From a virus: a stretch of 20,858 nt of DNA. The notes under the pieces are model-generated. The model did not search any database. It was not told the DNA's origin and saw nothing but the letters and a program-made list of their open reading frames with translations. Position 1 is the stretch's first letter. The number at the start of each line of letters is the position of its first letter. Below are positions 2,001 through 20,858 of this stretch, in pieces. The stretch lies in IMG/VR virus record IMGVR_UViG_3300045996_003241, positions 1-20,858 of that record; one strand, given 5' to 3'. The translations under genes and the position numbers were made by a program.

Positions 2001-3653
2001 TCAGGCCTGGGCCGTGCCCCAGTCGTCGTTGATGTCCGCGGCACCCGTGCGACCCGTGACGTTCAGCGGGATCGTGAGGTGGCGGGCCGTGCCACGACGG
2101 TTCGCGAGCGCGACACCCTCCTCGGCGAACAGCGCGGTGTACGTGTTCGTCTTGATGTTGGTGGAGTCGTAGATCGCGTTCAGCGTGATGAGGTCCTTCG
2201 TCAACTTCACGAAGGTCCCCGCCGGGTAGACGAGCGCGTTGACCGTGGCCGGGAAGTCGAGCACCGGGCCGACGCCCGCGCTCGACCCGACGAGCGGGTT
2301 CCAGTTGTAGACGTACTGGACGCGCAACTGGCGCACCCCGAAGTAGGAGTCGATCTGCTGGTCGGTGACCGCCAGCATGTCGACGCCCGTGCGGTTGGCG
2401 AGGTCGGCACGGATGGCCGCCTTCGCCCAGAACGGGAGCACGACCTCCATCGTCGTGTTCATCGGGAGGCGCTTGCGCTGCTTCTCGCCGAGCGCGACCA
2501 GTTCCAGCGCCGTCAGGATCGACGGCGCGTTCGCGAACGCGTTGACGACCGACACCGCGGCGCCCGCGATCGTGGCCGCCCGCGTCAGGAGCGTGCCCGA
2601 GACGCGGTGCTGGTGGGCGATCAGCGTGCCCTCGATGTACCGGCGGACCAGTTCCGGGTACGCCGCGTTCGTGAGGATGCCCGCCGAGATGCAGACGCCG
2701 ACGGCGTCGAGCGTGACGTCCTGGAACGGGGGGCACTCGACCTCGAAGCAGGGCTTCTCGGTGTCCGCGATGACCTGGGCCTCGGTGTACCACCACCCGG
2801 CGTAGTCCTCGTAGAAGTCCGAGAAGTCCGGACCCTTCGTGAACGAGATGCCGCCGCGCGTGACGCCGACCTCGGGCACGTCCCAGAGGCCGTCCGTGGA
2901 CTCCTCCGTGACGAGGTCGTACAGCGTCTCGTTCGGCGCGCACCAGCCACCGGCCGCGACGAGCGAGTTGCCCGTCAGCCGCGACTCGGAGCCCGCCGCC
3001 TCGATGAGGTCCTGCGTGGTCTTGTACTCGCGGTTCGAGTCGGTGAGCCCGTCGGTGCGGGTCTTCATGATGTCGGCGAGGCCGTACGCGTCCCGGCGGC
3101 GCGGGCCGACGAGACCCTTCGGCATCCGCTCGAAGCGGCGGATGGCCGCCTTCGCGAGGTCCTCCATCGACAGCGCCTGACCGAGAGCGACACCGGGGAC
3201 GTCCGCCGACGCGACGATCGTCGCCGGGGTGCGCTCCGGCTCGGCCTCGACCGGCGGCTGCGCGGCGGCAGCACGCTGGAGCGCGGAGCGGGTGGGGGCG
3301 GGACGGGCAGAGGCGGCGACCGCCTCCTTCTCGTCGACGACCTCCTCCTCGACCTCCTCGACCTCGGCGGTGGGCTCCTCGGCGGGAGCCTCCTCCTCGG
3401 CAGGCGCGGCGACGGCGGCGCGGGCCGCGGCGATCCGGTCCTTGCGCTCGGTGCCGGCGGCGGCGAGAGCGGTCTCCTGCGCCTCGGCCTCGGAGATGAA
3501 GGCGGCGAGCGCCTCCAGGGCCTCCAGGTCCTTGTCGGTGAAGTCCTCGTCGGCGATCTCGGCGTACCCGAGCGACTCGGCACGGGCGTCGGCGAGAGCC
3601 TTCTTCAGGTCCTCGATGCTGAGGTCGGCGACGTTCTTGGGGATCTTGAACAC
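2001..3653 (-). CDS. Major capsid protein, HK97-type, with fused N-terminal scaffold (delta) domain
   Basis: This is the shell subunit of the icosahedral head. The GTG at 3653 is chosen because GGAGGGG sits seven bases upstream; an ATG 57 bases further up has no such site. Residues 1-210 look like a delta/scaffold domain. They comprise a helical, charged stretch (LSIEDLKKALADARAESLGY and on to about 80), an acidic disordered linker rich in A, P and E (80-115), and a basic segment (RRFERMPKGLVGPRRRDAYG). The mature part starts near LVAAGGWCAPNETLYDLVTE, a pattern typical of actinophage HK97-fold capsids. Total length is 550 aa, long because the scaffold is fused. The fused protease encoded upstream is the likely processing enzyme. 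A 139-bp gap upstream and a hairpin downstream make this gene its own expression unit. Confidence 0.9.
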   Translation of the reverse strand: MFKIPKNVADLSIEDLKKALADARAESLGYAEIADEDFTDKDLEALEALAAFISEAEAQETALAAAGTERKDRIAAARAAVAAPAEEEAPAEEPTAEVEEVEEEVVDEKEAVAASARPAPTRSALQRAAAAQPPVEAEPERTPATIVASADVPGVALGQALSMEDLAKAAIRRFERMPKGLVGPRRRDAYGLADIMKTRTDGLTDSNREYKTTQDLIEAAGSESRLTGNSLVAAGGWCAPNETLYDLVTEESTDGLWDVPEVGVTRGGISFTKGPDFSDFYEDYAGWWYTEAQVIADTEKPCFEVECPPFQDVTLDAVGVCISAGILTNAAYPELVRRYIEGTLIAHQHRVSGTLLTRAATIAGAAVSVVNAFANAPSILTALELVALGEKQRKRLPMNTTMEVVLPFWAKAAIRADLANRTGVDMLAVTDQQIDSYFGVRQLRVQYVYNWNPLVGSSAGVGPVLDFPATVNALVYPAGTFVKLTKDLITLNAIYDSTNIKTNTYTALFAEEGVALANRRGTARHLTIPLNVTGRTGAADINDDWGTAQA

Positions 3654-13114: not shown

Positions 13115-13420
13115 CTACTCTCCGTCGCGGACGACGACCATCGCAGCGGCGTACGAGGCGGCGAGCCACCCGTTGACGATCCACCACGAGACGTGGAAGT
13201 CGCTCAGCAGGCCCCACGCCAGGACGGCCGCCGTGATGTACGGGGCCGCGCAGTACGGGCACGTGACCAGGTCCGACCAGGGGCCGTCGTTGGTCAGCGC
13301 CGACCACTTCGCCCTCACCCAGGCCGCTGGCGGGTAGGTGTCCTGCGTGAGCAGGCGCGTCAGTCGGGCGACGGAGACGACTCCGACCACCACCGCCGCG
13401 AGGATCTGGAGGGTCGTCAT
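13115..13420 (-). CDS. DUF1360-like small membrane protein
   Basis: The start at 13420 is an ATG overlapping the large-terminase stop (ATGA), giving 101 aa. An N-terminal hydrophobic helix (residues 4-20, LQILAAVVVGVVSVARL) is followed by a polar loop (TQDTYPPAAWVRAKWS) and the DLVTCPYCAAPYITAAVLA signature. That TCPYC pair followed by a hydrophobic helix is characteristic of DUF1360. A third hydrophobic stretch (WWIVNGWLAASYAAAMVVV) ends the protein. Relatives occur in actinophages near terminase/portal genes and in Gram-positive bacteria; the function is not established. A membrane location is inferred from the three hydrophobic segments. Confidence 0.82.
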   Translation of the reverse strand: MTTLQILAAVVVGVVSVARLTRLLTQDTYPPAAWVRAKWSALTNDGPWSDLVTCPYCAAPYITAAVLAWGLLSDFHVSWWIVNGWLAASYAAAMVVVRDGE

Positions 13421-14871
13421 GCAGGTGATGCTATCCCGTACGAGGACGTACGGGTACGGAAGCGCGCGTGCATCAGCGGGTCCGTCGACAGGGAGCCCCT
13501 CTGCGTGGGCGTGACGATCTCCGCAGGAGCGCTCAGGCCGCCGAGTTCCGTGAGGCCGTGCACGAGCGCGTCGACGCGGTCGGGGGAATCCGAGTCGCCC
13601 GGCACCCACTCGGTCATCTGCGCTTCCAGCGCCTCGTGCAGACCGACGTGGTGCACCTTGCGCTGCTCGTACAGCGCGACGGTCGGCTCCGCACGCAGCG
13701 CCTTGCCGCGGCGCGACTGGACCATCGTCAGCGGCAGGTGTGCCGCGACGTTGCGCAGCGTGCTCTCCACCATCTCGCCGCCGTAGTTCTTCTCCGCGAT
13801 GACCCGGTCGGCCTGCCACTTGTCGAAGACGGCGACGACCTTGTTCGCCCAGGCGGCCGGGCTGTACTTCCCGGACGCGTCCTCCAGCACGTAGATGTGC
13901 CCGGCGAGGCGGCCCAGCACGATGATGCCGGTCTCGTCCGAGCGCCGGGTCGACGTACCCGCCGGGTCGACAGCGACGATGACGCGGTCGAACGGGGTGA
14001 TGTCCTGGTCGGGCATCTCGTCCACGCGCTCGTCCTCGATCATCTGCGACTGCCAGAGCGCACCCTCGACGTCCTCGATGATCTCGCCGTGCAACTCCTG
14101 GCGCCCGAGCCGGGTGCCCTCGTACTTCTTCAGCACGTTCTTGCGGAACTGCGGGTCGAGGTTGTTCAGGTTCGCGTAGGTGGACACGCGAACCGTGATC
14201 GTGTCCTCCTCCTTCATCAACTCCTTCAGCCACTTCAGCGGCAGGGGAGTCGACGTGCACAGGACCTTCGCGCCGCCCGGCACGCCGTCGAGACGCAGGC
14301 CCATGAGGAGCATGTCCCAGACCTCGGTGATGAGCGGCATGTGCGCGGGCTCGTCGAGCCAGGCGACACCGTGCTGCGGGCCGCGCAGCGAGTCGGGCTC
14401 CTCGGCGGAGTAGCCGAACGCCTTGGCGCCGTTGCCGAAGGTGAACTCCTTCTTCGACGGCTCCCACGTGTAGTCGACCGCCGCGCGCTCGCAGGCGTAG
14501 ATCAGCCCCGAGGGGCCCTCGACCATCGTGCCTCGGACGTCAGGTCCGCGTCGGCCGATCATCGCCATGCGGCCGACGTGCTTCGACATCTTCCGCAGCC
14601 ACTCGGCGCCGGTGCGCGTCTTGCCTGCCCCGCGCCCGGAGATGATGAGCCAGACGAACCAGTCGAACCCGGGAGGCGGCCACTGGTCCGAGCGCGCGTG
14701 CGCGTACTCGTACCCCTCGTGCGGCTGGCCGTCGCAGATGCGCCCGCGGGTGCAGTACCAGGCGAGGATCTTCTTCTCGACACGGCGCTGGAGGGCTTCG
14801 GCTGCGCGCCTCTGCGACTTCTCGTCCCAGGTGTAGATGACGCCAGGGTCGAAGTCCTGCGGGATGGTCAT
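13417..14871 (-). CDS. terL: Terminase large subunit
   Basis: This is the DNA-packaging motor: an N-terminal ATPase and a C-terminal nuclease. The ATG at 14871 was chosen because it overlaps the upstream stop (ATGA); an upstream in-frame alternative at 14922 would add 17 residues. Walker A is SGRGAGKT (residues 78-85), Walker B is VAWLDE (D173, E174), and the coupling motif is CTSTP (205-209). The RNase H-like nuclease triad appears intact: D302 in VAVDPAG, E360 in VIAEKNYGG and D434 in DRVDALVHGL. The 484-aa length is normal. Neighbours (putative small terminase upstream, portal downstream) fit. Confidence 0.95.
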   Translation of the reverse strand: MTIPQDFDPGVIYTWDEKSQRRAAEALQRRVEKKILAWYCTRGRICDGQPHEGYEYAHARSDQWPPPGFDWFVWLIISGRGAGKTRTGAEWLRKMSKHVGRMAMIGRRGPDVRGTMVEGPSGLIYACERAAVDYTWEPSKKEFTFGNGAKAFGYSAEEPDSLRGPQHGVAWLDEPAHMPLITEVWDMLLMGLRLDGVPGGAKVLCTSTPLPLKWLKELMKEEDTITVRVSTYANLNNLDPQFRKNVLKKYEGTRLGRQELHGEIIEDVEGALWQSQMIEDERVDEMPDQDITPFDRVIVAVDPAGTSTRRSDETGIIVLGRLAGHIYVLEDASGKYSPAAWANKVVAVFDKWQADRVIAEKNYGGEMVESTLRNVAAHLPLTMVQSRRGKALRAEPTVALYEQRKVHHVGLHEALEAQMTEWVPGDSDSPDRVDALVHGLTELGGLSAPAEIVTPTQRGSLSTDPLMHARFRTRTSSYGIASPA

Positions 14872-15059
14872 CCTCGGATCGTACTCGCGGCCTTGCGCTC
14901 GGCCCGGTACTTCAGCCAGCACGACATGTGCCAGGGCGGCTTTCCGTAGGGACGGGCCATCTGCGCCCCCACCGTGATCTCACCCCGGCAGCGGACGCAC
15001 GTGGTCGGCCAGCGCGCCTTCATGCATCCAGGGTGACACAGGTAGTGCAGGTTCAGCAC
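14868..15059 (-). CDS. Small zinc-ribbon-like protein upstream of terL
   Basis: A GTG at 15059, seven bases after the previous stop, gives 63 aa. An in-frame ATG at 15023 gives 51 aa. Neither has a good Shine-Dalgarno, so the start is uncertain. The protein contains CVRC (residues 21-24) and HMSC (44-47), a plausible zinc site; in the longer form C8 and C12 (CHPGC) add a second pair. The middle reads VGAQMARPYGKPPWH. The stop overlaps the terL start (ATGA). Small CxxC/HxxC proteins of this kind often accompany phage packaging genes. A nucleic-acid-binding role is a guess. Confidence 0.65.
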   Translation of the reverse strand: MLNLHYLCHPGCMKARWPTTCVRCRGEITVGAQMARPYGKPPWHMSCWLKYRAERKAASTIRG

Positions 15060-15068
15060 TGCTGAATC
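15051..15068. promoter_or_regulatory. Palindrome TTCAGC-N3-GCTGAA, operator candidate near terL
   Basis: A perfect 15-bp palindrome, TTCAGCACTGCTGAA (15052-15066), sits in an 18-bp sequence that is repeated with two central changes at 20381-20398 in the divergent control region. Here it overlaps the stop of the RHH-like gene and the GTG of the next gene. Only these two copies were found by eye. The loop is too short for a stable RNA terminator, so a protein-binding site is more likely. Confidence 0.5.
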
Positions 15069-15456
15069 AGTCGCGCCAGTCCCCGTAGCCGAGGCCGTCG
15101 TCTGCCGTCTTCTCCCCGTTCGGCGCCCGACCGGGAGGGCGGGACCCGTACGGCGTGACGCGGGCGCAGTGCTTCAGGAGCAGCGTCCAGTCCACACCCA
15201 TGTCCTTCGCGATCTGCTTCGCGAGCGCGCGGCGGGCGTACGCGCCGATGGACATGCCGCGGCCCTTCGCGACGATGTGCAGGGCGGAGAGGAACTCCGG
15301 GTCGAAGAAGACCTGGATCTGCGCCTTGCGCCTGCCCTGCGTGCGCACCGCGGACTTCTCCGCCTGGACGTGGCGGACGTTCGCGATGACGCGCTCGCGC
15401 CAGCCCGGGATCTCGCGGTCGGAGATCCCGGCGAGGTTGCCCCTCGGGTTAGCCAC
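15067..15456 (-). CDS. RHH-like DNA-binding protein of the packaging operon
   Basis: The GTG at 15456 overlaps the upstream gene by eight bases. Residues ~44-84 (KAQIQVFFDPEFLSALHIVA, then GMSIGAYARRALAKQIAKD) fit a ribbon-helix-helix pattern: a short strand with alternating residues, helix A, a turn, helix B. The N-terminal 40 residues are basic (GWRERVIANVRHVQAEKSAV). The C-terminal tail is disordered, with charged and glycine-rich residues. RHH proteins bind DNA as dimers, commonly as repressors. Beside terminase genes it could be an autoregulator or an accessory packaging-site binder. Target and role are inferred; a gene symbol would not be justified. Confidence 0.75.
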   Translation of the reverse strand: MANPRGNLAGISDREIPGWRERVIANVRHVQAEKSAVRTQGRRKAQIQVFFDPEFLSALHIVAKGRGMSIGAYARRALAKQIAKDMGVDWTLLLKHCARVTPYGSRPPGRAPNGEKTADDGLGYGDWRD

Positions 15457-16033
15457 GGTCGGGGTCCGCCTCGACGATCTCGGCGTCGATGATGTCCGCC
15501 TCCTCGGCGGTCTGCTCCACGACCTTCGCAGCCATCTGCTCGATCCAGCGCTGGACCTCGTGGTTCTGCGGCGTGGTGATCTGCACCTGCTGCGGGGAGT
15601 CGAGGCCGCGCAGGCGTGCGTGCCGGTCGATGATCGCCAGGGACGTGCGCACGTACTGGAGGTGGTCCGGGTCCCGGTCGTTGATCGCCCGGCGCCACGT
15701 CGACTGGAGGAGACGCTCCAGGCGGCGGCCCATCAGCCCGCGCAACTGGTCGACGTCCTCCAGCGGGACGCTCTCCGCGAGCGCGCGCTCCACAGCGACA
15801 CGGGCCCGGTAGGCGTCCGCGTACTGCAACTCCTTGGCGATGGCCTCGAACGACGCCCCGGCCAACTTCAGCGCGACGGCCGCGGAGGCGCGCGTGGGGT
15901 TGTCGTCGTTGTCCCGGGCGCCGGGGTTGCGGCTGACTCGGGTGAGGTCCCTGTTGATCTCGCCCTTCTCGATGTCCTCCAGGGACGGGGGAGGCGTGCC
16001 GCGCGTCAGCCCGCGGGGGTCGATCTCCGCCAT
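15449..16033 (-). CDS. Probable terminase small subunit
   Basis: The ATG at 16033 overlaps the preceding stop (TGATG), giving 194 aa. After a disordered charged N-terminus, residues ~48-87 (TRASAAVALKLAGASFEAIA, then KELQYADAYRARVAVERALA) look like a helix-turn-helix of the kind small terminases use to bind the packaging-start site. A long helical middle follows (LMGRRLERLLQSTWRRAIND), then SLAIIDRHARLRGLDSPQQV, a stretch I associate with small terminase-type proteins in actinophages. An acidic C-terminus (EEADIIDAEIVEADPD) could contact the motor. The position three genes upstream of terL supports the call. Confidence 0.72.
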   Translation of the reverse strand: MAEIDPRGLTRGTPPPSLEDIEKGEINRDLTRVSRNPGARDNDDNPTRASAAVALKLAGASFEAIAKELQYADAYRARVAVERALAESVPLEDVDQLRGLMGRRLERLLQSTWRRAINDRDPDHLQYVRTSLAIIDRHARLRGLDSPQQVQITTPQNHEVQRWIEQMAAKVVEQTAEEADIIDAEIVEADPDRG

Positions 16034-16149
16034 CAGTCCATGCCCTCCCAGACGGCGACGCCCGCGATGAACTCGGGGGCGACGGTCATCTTGCCCAGGG
16101 GCGCCGGGGGCACCTCGCCGACAGGGCCGTCCCACGTGGTCTCGCTCAT
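16033..16149 (-). CDS. Tiny protein between parB-like and small terminase genes (38 aa)
   Basis: The ATG at 16149 overlaps the ParB-like stop (ATGA), and the TGA at 16033-16035 overlaps the next ATG (TGATG). The frame exactly fills the 117-bp gap with coupled junctions on both sides, which is the main evidence that it is real. The peptide starts MSETTWDGPVGEVPPAPLGK and ends in IAGVAVWEGMD. It has no recognisable domain and no clear membrane helix. Confidence 0.65.
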   Translation of the reverse strand: MSETTWDGPVGEVPPAPLGKMTVAPEFIAGVAVWEGMD

Positions 16150-16664
16150 CGTCCGCCTCCGAAGGTGTGCCCGCACGAGGGGCACTTGATCTCCTGACCG
16201 CGCTGCTTCACCTCGTCCGGCTCAGGCTCCGGCTCGGGCTGGTAGTCCTGCACGTTGATGAGGTGGTTCAGGAACTGGTCGTCGTACCCGGTGCCCAGCA
16301 GGCCCAGGTCCTCGTCGGACACGCGCTCCAGCAGGTCGCGCAACTGGGCCGAGTCGATCATCGCCAACTGTGCGATGCGGTTGTCGGCCAGCAGGATGCG
16401 CAGTGCCTCCTTCTCGTCAACGTCGAGCCAGACGACCGGGATGTTGCGCGCGCCGAGGGAGTGCAGCGCCGCGTACCGGTGGTTCCCCGCGAGGATGTAC
16501 CCGGTCGAGCGCTGCGCGATGACGGGGGTGAAGACCCCGTTGACCTCCATCGAGGCAGCGATGGCCTCGATGTCCCCGTTGTTCGGGTTCTCCGGGTGCT
16601 GGCTGACGGACCCGATGGGCTCCATCAGGGGGGTCAGCGCCTCGTGGAAGCGGACGATGCTCAT
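16146..16664 (-). CDS. ParB-like nuclease-domain protein with C-terminal zinc motif
   Basis: This 172-aa protein shows a ParB/Srx-type domain at residues ~15-100. It contains HPENPNNGDIEAIAASMEVN, then GVFTPVIAQRSTGYILAGNH, with GNHRYAA (61-67) in the position of the GERRYRAA motif of ParB, and WLDVDEKEALRILLADNRIA. It lacks the central HTH domain of chromosomal ParB, so it is not a standard partition protein. A linker rich in P and E leads to CPSCGH (161-166), a probable zinc knuckle. Phage ParB-like proteins often act with packaging or DNA-modifying enzymes. Here it heads the packaging operon, just after a terminator-like hairpin. AGGA lies seven bases before the ATG. Confidence 0.85.
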   Translation of the reverse strand: MSIVRFHEALTPLMEPIGSVSQHPENPNNGDIEAIAASMEVNGVFTPVIAQRSTGYILAGNHRYAALHSLGARNIPVVWLDVDEKEALRILLADNRIAQLAMIDSAQLRDLLERVSDEDLGLLGTGYDDQFLNHLINVQDYQPEPEPEPDEVKQRGQEIKCPSCGHTFGGGR

Positions 16665-18051: not shown

Positions 18052-18266
18052 CGGAGGATGCATCCTCTGTGCGGGGTCAGGTGGTGGGCGTGGGTCAAGC
18101 AGCACCGGGTCGTGTGGTTGCACGGCAGGATGCTGATGCCGTTCGTCAGTTCGAGGTGAAACGGACTGACCTCCTGGCTGACGCGGATGTCGTACTCCCC
18201 GCGCTCGTCGGACACGTGCGTCCAGTACGGCAGGGGCTTGGGCTTGCCGTAGCGCGCGTACCTCAC
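18048..18266 (-). CDS. Cys/His-rich small protein (72 aa)
   Basis: The GTG at 18266 overlaps the upstream stop (GTGA), and the stop overlaps the next ATG. The first 45 residues are ordinary (YGKPKPLPYWTHVSDERGEY). The C-terminal 25 residues are dense in metal ligands: C49, H51, C55, C56, H59, H61, H62, H66 and C69. A zinc-binding fold is plausible, although the spacing (CNH...RCCLTHAHHLTPHRGC) fits no family I know. The function is unknown. Confidence 0.7.
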   Translation of the reverse strand: MRYARYGKPKPLPYWTHVSDERGEYDIRVSQEVSPFHLELTNGISILPCNHTTRCCLTHAHHLTPHRGCILR

Positions 18267-18652
18267 GCCAGCACCTCCCCGCAGTCGCAGGCCCAGACCT
18301 TGACCGGTGCTCCCATCTCCCACTTCTCGTCCACGACCCTCACTCGGCGGTGCCGGTGGGTGACCGAGCCGGTCGACCCTGGGCCTGCCGGGACGATGAA
18401 GCCGGTCGGCGTCGGGATGCGGTCGGGGTCCTGCATGGCGTTCTCCTGGGCCGCGGCCGGTGCGGGCTTCACGACCGGGAGGTCGGTGCCCCTGCCGGGG
18501 TGGGCGATGGCGGACAACTGGTTGTCGACCAGGCGACGCAGCGCCTTGCGCGCCGTGCCGCCCCACTGCGCGAGCGCCTGCTCCTCCGCCTCGGTGAGGC
18601 GCACGGTGATGCTCTTGCTCTTGGCCTGGTTGCCCAGGGACGGCCTGCCCAT
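18263..18652 (-). CDS. Ribbon-helix-helix DNA-binding protein
   Basis: The ATG at 18652 overlaps the upstream stop (TGATG), giving 129 aa. Residues 12-48 (SKSITVRLTEAEEQALAQWG, then GTARKALRRLVDNQLS) are a clear RHH pattern, with the ITVRLT strand that inserts into the DNA major groove followed by two helices. A proline/alanine linker and a C-terminal part ending in KVWACDCGEVLA follow; C122 and C124 may bind metal. It is a good candidate for regulating the divergent control region 1.5 kb upstream, since RHH dimers bind phased short repeats such as those at 20120-20197. The target is inference. Confidence 0.82.
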   Translation of the reverse strand: MGRPSLGNQAKSKSITVRLTEAEEQALAQWGGTARKALRRLVDNQLSAIAHPGRGTDLPVVKPAPAAAQENAMQDPDRIPTPTGFIVPAGPGSTGSVTHRHRRVRVVDEKWEMGAPVKVWACDCGEVLA

Positions 18653-18795
18653 CAGTGCACCCCTCCGTTGAAGACGCCGACGATCGCGGCGAAGATGAAG
18701 CCCGCGGCGATGATCGCGAGCACGAACACCCCGGCGAGCGAGGCCAGGGCCACGAAGACGAAGACGAGCGTCTTCCACCACGGGTCGCGCCTCAT
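18652..18795 (-). CDS. Small membrane protein, holin candidate (47 aa)
   Basis: The ATG at 18795 overlaps the upstream stop (ATGA). After a short charged/aromatic start (MRRDPWWK), residues 9-42 are almost wholly hydrophobic (TLVFVFVALASLAGVFVLAI, then IAAGFIFAAIVGVF). That is enough for one long or two tightly packed membrane helices. It lies four genes before the endolysin in the same operon. Small holins can look like this, but it lacks the basic C-terminal tail common in holins, so the role is tentative. Confidence 0.6.
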   Translation of the reverse strand: MRRDPWWKTLVFVFVALASLAGVFVLAIIAAGFIFAAIVGVFNGGVH

Positions 18796-20066
18796 CCGGT
18801 CGTCACCCCGTGGATCGAGTAGCCGCGCGTGCTCTCGACGTCGGTGAACACCCGGATCGCCCCCGCGTTGTTGAAGCGGAACCGCATCACCCAGGTCAGG
18901 TGCCACCGCTCGGCGGTGAAGCCCTCGGCCTCGGCCGCCATGCACAGCGACTCCAGGGCCTCGCCCGCCCGCCGCTGCGAGCGGACGACGAGACCGATCG
19001 TGGCGCCCTTGCTGGCGGCGATGACGGCCTCGCGCGGGCTCATCCAGCGCAAGGGTCCGTCGGTGTGGATGACGGCCAGCGCCTCGCGCCCCGCAGGGGT
19101 CTGCCACCAGGGTCGGTCGGCGACCTCCATGCTGCCCCCGGTGTTCCACTGCGAGGTGGGCCCGAGGTTCACCTGGACGACGTCGCCCTTCTCCGTGCGG
19201 CCCCCGCCGTCGGTCCCGATGAAGACACACCCGGTGTGGCTCGCACCGCTGTCCACACGCTCGCGGTGGACTCGCCCGACGCAGCCAAGCATCGTGCCGA
19301 GTATCGCGCTGGCGTCCCGCACCTGGCTCTCCAGCGGCCCAGAGGCGAGGTGGCCGCTGTCGACGTCGATGGCGCGCGGGCTCGCGTGGTTCGAGGCGCC
19401 GTAGTTGGGACGGAACGGGGCGCGGCCTCCGGCGAACCAGCAGTCGCGGATCTCGATGCGGTCCTGGGGCGGGAGGTTGATCTGCGCCCAGGCCTGGGCT
19501 GTCGAGATCGCCGCCCACTCGTCGAGGTAGGCGGCGCGGATGCGCTCAGCGCTGGCCTTGCGCTCCAGCCACCGCGCGTCGTCGGTCTTGTCCCGCGCCG
19601 CGTCGTTCTCCCTGCCCGGCTCGATCGGGTCCATCGGACGCGACTCCTTCGCTGAGGGAACCGTCGTGCCGGGGACGTGCTCGACGACGCCGTTGATCTC
19701 CGTGCGCCGCAGCGCCTCGACCAGGTTCGCGGTGAAGTCCCGCTCCCGAGCCGCCTTCAGCGCGTCGTCGACCTTGCCCCACCCGATCCTGCCGTCGGGC
19801 CACTTCATCCACACGTCACCGGGCTTCCCGGGGTGGATGCGCCGCTGCGGCACGGTCGGCGGGTTCAGGGCCCTGAGCGCGTCCTCCAGCGCCTGGCGTC
19901 CCGCGGCTCGCTCGTCCGCCCCGTGGTCCTTCGTGAGTCGGTCAGCCACCGGCCCGACGTCGTTCAGCCGCCGCTCGCGCACCTGGTCCGCCGCGGCCCG
20001 CTCCTCGGGTTCGATCCAGCCCCCCCTGCCGAGCGGCCCCGTCATCCCTCCGTCGCTCCTCGCCAT
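18792..20066 (-). CDS. Unrecognised 424-aa protein, first gene of the leftward operon
   Basis: The ATG at 20066 is chosen for its AGGAG eight bases upstream; the frame is open further up only through the control region. The N-terminal 70 residues are charged and helical (EERAAADQVRERRLNDVGPV). Residues 82-100 read PGDVWMKWPDGRIGWGKVD. The centre includes DCWFAGGRAPFRPNYGASNH and VHRERVDSGASHTGCVFIGT. The last ~80 residues (SPREAVIAASKGATIGLVVR, then RFRFNNAGAIRVFTDVESTR and GYSIHG) resemble, by eye, the central part of terminase/helicase ATPase domains, where a strand-turn ending in TRGY/RG.. precedes Walker B. No Walker A or B is present. No function is proposed. Confidence 0.85.
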   Translation of the reverse strand: MARSDGGMTGPLGRGGWIEPEERAAADQVRERRLNDVGPVADRLTKDHGADERAAGRQALEDALRALNPPTVPQRRIHPGKPGDVWMKWPDGRIGWGKVDDALKAARERDFTANLVEALRRTEINGVVEHVPGTTVPSAKESRPMDPIEPGRENDAARDKTDDARWLERKASAERIRAAYLDEWAAISTAQAWAQINLPPQDRIEIRDCWFAGGRAPFRPNYGASNHASPRAIDVDSGHLASGPLESQVRDASAILGTMLGCVGRVHRERVDSGASHTGCVFIGTDGGGRTEKGDVVQVNLGPTSQWNTGGSMEVADRPWWQTPAGREALAVIHTDGPLRWMSPREAVIAASKGATIGLVVRSQRRAGEALESLCMAAEAEGFTAERWHLTWVMRFRFNNAGAIRVFTDVESTRGYSIHGVTTG

Positions 20067-20119
20067 CTCGTTCTCCTCTCGTCTCGGGCGCAGCCCGTTC
20101 GCCACGTCCCGAAAGTTAG

Positions 20120-20197
20120 CGTACACGGAAACCCTGTATCCGTACACAGAAACCCGCGTCAGACCCCCCGAACCCCGGTTTTCGTACACGACAACCC
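20120..20197. repeat. Phased 15-bp direct repeats (operator or iteron array)
   Basis: Three copies start at 20120 (CGTACACGGAAACCC), 20141 (CGTACACAGAAACCC) and 20183 (CGTACACGACAACCC), with one to two differences between copies. The start-to-start steps are 21 and 42 bp, that is two and four helical turns. All lie on the same face of DNA, upstream of the leftward operon. Confidence 0.75.
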
Positions 20198-20216
20198 CTG
20201 ATCCGACCCCATAACC

Positions 20217-20240
20217 GGGTACGAGAACGTTTCCGTACCC
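20217..20240. promoter_or_regulatory. Imperfect 24-bp palindrome related to the 15-bp repeats
   Basis: The outer arms GGGTACG and CGTACCC and the core AACGTT are symmetric; 20 of 24 positions obey the symmetry. Each arm contains a GTAC followed by CGGAAAC-like sequence, as in the neighbouring direct repeats. It is a good candidate for a dimer-binding operator. Confidence 0.65.
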
Positions 20241-20326
20241 AGATTCCTCCCCCGGCAGGACATGACCGCAAGGCCGGGCAGCGTCGTGCACATGCGCGGT
20301 CGTCTGAGTCCGCCTAGGTGGGGGGG

Positions 20327-20398
20327 GTGTCAGGACCCTGATAGTTGACGGTTCGAGTGTCAGGGGGCTGAGGGTCACGGGTTCAGCGGTGCTGAATC
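20327..20398. repeat. Cluster of TCAG/CTGA palindromes upstream of the rightward promoter
   Basis: TCAGGACCCTGA (20330-20341), TCAGGGGGCTGA (20360-20371) and TTCAGCGGTGCTGAA (20382-20396) follow one another. The first two lie in an imperfect 30-bp tandem repeat starting GTGTCAGG at 20327 and 20357 (19 of 30 positions identical). The third is the partner of the palindrome at 15052. Confidence 0.6.
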
Positions 20399-20415
20399 TC
20401 ACCCTCACCTGCAAG

Positions 20416-20445
20416 TTGACAGAGGTGGTGCATTGGTGTTCTACT
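20416..20445 (+). promoter_or_regulatory. Sigma70-type promoter for the rightward gene
   Basis: A perfect -35 box TTGACA (20416-20421) is followed after 18 bp by TCTACT (20440-20445), which matches four of six -10 positions. The start codon of the downstream gene is 51 bp past the -10. The palindrome cluster ends 18 bp before the -35, a natural place for control. Confidence 0.6.
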
Positions 20446-20496
20446 TCTTGTTGTCAGGCCAACACGGGCCGACACACCCGAGAGGAACCACCCACC

Positions 20497-20858
20497 ATGA
20501 GCGCCACCACCACCACCCAGGACACCACCGTGAGCACCGAGACGGGTGTCGTTTCGTCGGCGTCGGCGTCGAAGTCGGCGGAGGTCAAGGCCCCGTCCCC
20601 CGCCCAGGTCCTGTCGTCCCTGTACAGGGGAACGGGTGCGCTGAGCACGGAGGAGCAGGCCGTGGCGCTCTCGCTCCTGACGTCGGCCCGGTCCACGGCC
20701 GTCACCGCCCCCGAGACCATCGCCGCAGGTGAGGCGCAGGTTCAGTCCCTGACGGACGCGCTGGTCGCCGCTCGCGCTGAGGTCCGTTCCTCCCAGACGG
20801 CGCTGGACGGGGCGCACGTCACCATCGCCCGGGTGCTGTTCCTGATCGCCACGCCAGA
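20497..20858 (+). CDS. First rightward gene, unknown function (3' end outside window)
   Basis: The ATG at 20497 has GAGAGGA about ten bases upstream and a good promoter. The frame stays open to the end of the window (120 codons seen), and it is the only convincing plus-strand gene. The N-terminus is disordered and rich in T, S and A (MSATTTTQDTTVSTETGVV). Residues 30-120 are helical (PSPAQVLSSLYRGTGALSTE, then AGEAQVQSLTDALVAARAEV), with heptad-like spacing that suggests a coiled coil. It is probably the first gene of an early or non-structural operon. I do not recognise it. Confidence 0.75.
   Translation, partial: MSATTTTQDTTVSTETGVVSSASASKSAEVKAPSPAQVLSSLYRGTGALSTEEQAVALSLLTSARSTAVTAPETIAAGEAQVQSLTDALVAARAEVRSSQTALDGAHVTIARVLFLIATP

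Follow-up and report, generated by a model that had tools for sequence, protein, structure and literature searches.

What does a short array of phased repeats do in the gap between two divergent phage operons? The array lies near one end of a 20,858-nt stretch of DNA (hereafter, the window), a linear IMG/VR fragment (IMGVR_UViG_3300045996_003241) of a phage whose relatives infect actinobacteria. A first-pass annotation of the window had proposed cooperative repressor binding or replication iterons, with nearby RHH or ParB-like proteins as ligands and a possible role as the phage's main lytic/late switch. Comparison with sequenced relatives instead points to the genome end. We give roughly even chances to a reading in which the array is part of a cosB-like packaging site, with operators on the left-arm side of a terminase cut that would be bound by an RHH protein.

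The repeat array between divergent genes

The array occupies 20115-20246, within an intergenic gap bounded by a minus-strand gene start at 20066 and a plus-strand gene start at 20497. Scanning the window with the repeat CGTACACGGAAACCC gave matches at 20120 (no mismatches), 20141 (one), and 20183 (two)—that is, at steps of exactly 21 and then 42 bp—followed at 20217-20240 by GGGTACGAGAAC/GTTTCCGTACCC, a 10/12 palindrome that uses the same half-site. Each repeat is itself a pseudo-palindrome of the form GTTTYCGTA/CACGGAAAC, symmetric at 12-14 of 18 positions, and the array can be described as follows:

20115..20132, plus strand: full site 1, GTTAGCGTACACGGAAAC, from repeat scan and symmetry; it stops 48 bp short of the start codon of the left-arm gene
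20136..20153, plus strand: full site 2, GTATCCGTACACAGAAAC, from repeat scan and symmetry; 21 bp from site 1
20178..20195, plus strand: full site 3, GTTTTCGTACACGACAAC, from repeat scan and symmetry; 42 bp from site 2
20229..20246, plus strand: site 4, GTTTCCGTACCCAGATTC, a weaker copy (14/18) with one perfect half-site; centre +42 from the predicted cut (see below)
20217..20240, no strand assigned: 24-bp tail-to-tail palindrome of two half-sites, overlapping site 4

All components of the arrangement reported at first pass were thus present, and a scan allowing up to three mismatches returned only one further match in the window, at 3647. Shuffled windows contained 0.65 matches on average, and none of 100 shuffles reached four. 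The proposed helical phasing holds for the three window repeats but not for the fourth site, which is set 51 bp off. A separate reading of the motif as start-associated sequences (SAS/ESAS) was rejected, as it forms one cluster in 20.8 kb and not many copies before start codons. A consensus scan of 19900-20520 found no sigma-70-like promoter or terminator.

The genes around the array include the packaging genes of the left arm (13417..16664):

18792..20066, minus strand: first left-arm gene, 424 aa
18263..18652, minus strand: RHH-type protein (phrog_35770) and candidate ligand; in contig L028, the orthologue is the immediate neighbour of the array
16146-16664, minus strand: ParB-like protein
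15449-16135, minus strand: putative terminase small subunit
15067-15456, minus strand: second RHH-type protein
13417-14922, minus strand: terminase large subunit
20497..20858, plus strand: first gene of the right arm, truncated at the window end; distantly homologous to L028 2363-3184

Sequence searches of viral contigs and phage records found no relatives of the 424-aa product. Two further features of the region are recorded here. The palindrome GGTTCAGC-NNN-GCTGAATC, probably another operator, has exactly two copies in the window, one where the second RHH-type gene ends (15050-15068) and one immediately before a TTGACA that precedes the right-arm gene (20380-20398); two imperfect 30-bp direct repeats also lie upstream of the right-arm gene, at 20328-20387.

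L028 is the closest contig found (terminase large subunit 61% identical, ParB-like protein 54%, RHH-type protein 32%), and it also carries the distant homologue of the divergent right-arm gene listed above. In the corresponding intergenic region, it has four diverged GTTTCCGTACTACAGAAAC-like sites, with a middle one base longer than that of the window, at spacings of 28, 24, and 22 bp. The element is thus kept in place between the two genomes, whereas its exact two-turn phasing is not. A search of viral contigs for exact 21-bp tandems gave three matches, all unrelated, while a search for three-copy GTACTAC arrays recovered L028 plus 20 unrelated repeats. GTACTAC-containing tandem arrays with periods of 24 and 17 bp were seen in three unrelated viral contigs (L051, L066, and L067).

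A site at near-fixed distance from the genome ends of relatives

We compared 18 complete genomes of relatives, 11 at first and seven added later. All 18 have exact direct terminal repeats (DTRs) of 195-953 bp: SilentRX 838, BruhMoment 953, AWGoat 833, Ranunculus about 900, Rizwana 591, Tank 589, Beagle 589, MellowYellow 587, Kithara 337, Sunfish 282, and the Microbacterium phages 195-211. The length for Tank agrees with the published value (PMC5513430), as does that for Hyperion (PMC7302621). In SilentRX, the DTR boundary is flanked by the last gene, which points leftward, and the first gene, which points rightward; this gap is the counterpart of the divergent gap in the window.

When the 130 bp after each DTR end was compared with the region upstream of the RHH operon, the best match peaked at +35 (lineage-averaged z 3.13). 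The two regions covary: matches scored 10.55/14 within a phage versus 8.54/14 against other phages. Five of the seven later-added phages peaked exactly at +35—SadLad (z 7.3), RubyRalph (7.1), Marcie (6.8), OneinaGillian (4.8), and Tempo (5.0)—all of them Microbacterium phages related to Pepe25 or Hyperion, and therefore not fully independent. The other two, Phinky and MellowYellow, lacked the +35 peak, in Phinky apparently due to an indel.

A GT-N-AC dyad (pseudo-palindrome) is centred +41.5 to +43 past the DTR end in 14 of 18 phages and also in L028, against a background of 0.9% for scores of 5 or more; the dyads of Beagle, BruhMoment, MellowYellow, and Tank, counted among the 14, are weak (score below 5). 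Sunfish departs from this spacing (+48.5), and Hyperion, Phinky, and Ranunculus have no clean fit, the exact DTR end of Ranunculus being uncertain by one or two bases. Tested genome by genome, the symmetry of the dyad did not by itself reach significance. Across the cut, 12 of 16 relatives carry a GACCCCC that begins at -49 to -51 (background 0.09%). Most relatives have a single site near the DTR end and no array. In Pepe25, a DnaA-box-like TTATCCACA lies just beyond the +42 site (L023, about 265-275), and a similar GGGTTATC occupies the corresponding place in OneinaGillian (L119).

Carried over to the window, the comparison yields two predicted features:

20279..20280, minus strand: predicted terminase cut and DTR right end, CACGACGCT/GCCCGGCC, from comparison with relatives' exact DTR ends; 20280 would be the last DTR base
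20320..20331, minus strand: GACACCCCCCCC element, with its C-run at -51 from the predicted cut

Both spacings fit this cut (C-run at -51, centre of site 4 at +42), as they do a predicted cut after 3455 in L028 (C-run at -49, dyad centre at +41.5). The two cuts were selected visually on the basis of the cut and C-run sequences. The +42 centres were computed only afterwards, but the arrays and the +35 offset had already been seen, so that the fit is no blind test. By the cut matrix alone, 20280 ranks second of 430 intergenic positions and 3455 first of 413 in L028, on a weight matrix that is weak (leave-one-out ranks from 0 to over 2000) and unsuited to genome-wide prediction. Given this choice of cuts and the poor performance of the matrix, the cut in the window is a prediction only. 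A DTR from 20279/20280 to the window end at 20858 would measure 579 bp, not far from the lengths of several relatives (587-591 bp), which may be coincidence.

On this comparative evidence, the array likely marks the end of the phage genome, and the cut that it flanks would make the right end of the DTR. In most relatives, a single operator lies roughly four turns of the helix away from the cut (+42 bp), and it would be expanded to about four operators in the window (+42 to +156) and in L028 (+42 to +116). The earlier suggestion of a main lytic/late switch is accordingly not our leading reading: the array abuts the predicted genome end, and relatives keep the site at a near-fixed distance from the DTR boundary whatever genes adjoin it.

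Candidate binding proteins and competing readings

RHH autoregulators of the Arc/MetJ type are small proteins with an N-terminal strand-helix-helix that bind pseudo-palindromic operators, including a site at their own gene. The motif in these phages shows a comparable distribution. It overlaps the RHH start codon in Pepe25 (start 4141), sits a few bases upstream of the RHH gene in Sunfish, and in SilentRX, AWGoat, Tank, and Rizwana precedes either the RHH gene itself or the gene immediately ahead of that; the later-added phages also have it at their own RHH gene. In the ~60-kb genomes, the sequences most like the motif beside the DTR are those at the RHH gene and, in several phages, ones upstream of an SSB or RecA operon. 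Pepe25 has a third site upstream of genes 64-62, the last of which codes for an ssDNA-binding protein, with counterpart matches at 43.5-46.9 kb in OneinaGillian, Tempo, Marcie, SadLad, and RubyRalph, and Rizwana has a further site upstream of a RecA-like gene. Copies at both the RHH gene and the SSB/RecA operons suit an autoregulated RHH regulator, and the candidate binder is, judging from motif placement, most likely the phage's own autoregulating RHH protein. Of the ligands first proposed, the RHH protein at 18263-18652 is thus the best candidate for the array, while the ParB-like protein has lost ground (see below).

Orthology of the RHH proteins by profile search was strong for Phinky, Kithara, and Rizwana and weak for Marcie and Pepe25; several orthologues share phrog_35770, a family listed as unknown, and syntenic orthologues are annotated as RHH in GenBank, with borderline NikA-like Pfam matches. 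The full window protein found no relatives in a sequence search of phage records and no match in Pfam, Pfam and PDB profile searches did not confirm an RHH fold for it, and its AlphaFold model was poor (pLDDT 48). In Pepe25, the start of the RHH gene (L023 4141-4311) seems to lie 42 bp before the annotated one, in agreement with the Marcie annotation.

Many of these observations would also be expected if the sites were purely transcriptional—an operator of divergent promoters under an autoregulated RHH repressor, with its nearness to the genome end incidental—and the +42 site could be an operator belonging to a promoter that simply happens to be situated there. Besides the copies at the RHH gene starts of Pepe25 and Sunfish and upstream of SSB/RecA operons, motif-like sequences precede the first left-arm gene in Tank, Rizwana, and SilentRX/AWGoat, and the window array itself stops 48 bp short of a start codon. 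We nonetheless consider this reading rather unlikely, as the distance of about +42 to the DTR end is nearly fixed despite DTRs of 195-953 bp and varied neighbouring genes, some phages having no rightward gene there, and as the consensus scan of 19900-20520 gave no sigma-70-like promoter. The genes next to the DTR in Pepe25 and Hyperion are oriented toward it over some 3-4 kb, yet the site is retained (clearly so in Pepe25), an arrangement that argues against a purely left-arm promoter role.

A cosB-like site could, alternatively, be bound by the terminase small subunit, which would also repress its own operon. This is a possible binder: its gene belongs to the same operon, and the small terminases of lambda and N15 bind R sites beside the cut (PMC4669245). 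The second site in Pepe25 and Sunfish is at the start of the RHH gene, though, and not of the small-terminase gene, and the extra sites at SSB/RecA operons better suit a regulator, making this assignment distinctly improbable.

We think it very unlikely that the array consists of replication iterons or a ParB/parS-like site. In-phase direct repeats, a ParB-like gene in the same arm, and the DnaA-box-like sequence past the Pepe25 site are in line with such a role, but most relatives have a single site and not an array. No initiator was found beside the array among the window proteins searched, and the RepA-like initiator of SilentRX is encoded at 48.7-49.5 kb, far from the array region, which speaks against the iterons suggested at first pass; and Microbacterium relatives that retain the motif (Pepe25, Hyperion, Marcie, OneinaGillian, and Tempo) show no annotated ParB in their packaging operons. 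Finally, a chance or coding repeat, suggested by a 21-bp step equal to seven codons of a minus-strand frame that is uninterrupted across the array (18792-20414), can be practically dismissed given the shuffling result, the motif in the corresponding intergenic position of L028 at other spacings, and a good Shine-Dalgarno sequence (AGAGGAG) before the ATG at 20066.

Relation to known systems and implications

Returning to an RHH-bound packaging site, the layout resembles the cos region of lambda, which comprises cosQ, cosN, and cosB, with a complex cosB (R3-R2-R1) in lambda and a simple one in N15 (PMC4669245). As in those phages, the cut has short protein-binding repeats on one side and a short conserved element on the other, and, as between lambda and N15, there are single-site versions (most relatives) and multi-site versions (the window and L028). 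In contrast to lambda and N15, an RHH protein is the likelier binder here, ahead of a small terminase of the winged-helix type, no IHF site is shown, and the motif is also a gene operator. Because relatives have exact DTRs and not cohesive ends, this is not a lambda-type cos, and we call it cosB-like in layout only.

With Arc/MetJ-type regulators, the candidate would share a small N-terminal strand-helix-helix pattern (the RHH fold here being putative), pseudo-palindromic sites, and a copy of the motif where it is itself encoded; to our knowledge, the usual picture of such proteins does not include a site set at a constant interval from the end of a viral genome. Within the same phage group, the repeats GATCAACCNNGGTTGATC of cluster EG Microbacterium phages are likewise palindromic and intergenic, but differ in sequence and sit upstream of leftward right-arm genes; the passages of the cluster EG report consulted here make no mention of a +42 site (PMC7302621). 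Within the partial literature covered, we found no published report of the GACCCCC/cut/operator layout.

An RHH protein encoded in the packaging operon would, in our proposal, bind the end sites, its own gene, and in some phages the SSB/RecA operon; at the genome end, it would position the terminase, and at promoters, it would tune its own expression and that of replication genes. We advance only tentatively, as a possibility short of probable, the further idea that this repressor doubles as a packaging-specificity factor, so that, across a large group of DTR actinophages, the switching-off of replication genes would be coupled to the onset of packaging.

How DTR phages choose their ends is, as far as we know, poorly understood. 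The layout described here—GACCCCC at -50, the cut, and an operator at +42, conserved among phages of Arthrobacter, Curtobacterium, and Microbacterium—amounts to a concrete, testable model of a packaging site, and may aid the prediction of genome ends in metagenomic contigs. It also gives phrog_35770 a testable function and, if the model is true, a single protein may serve both as a gene regulator and as a marker of the genome end.
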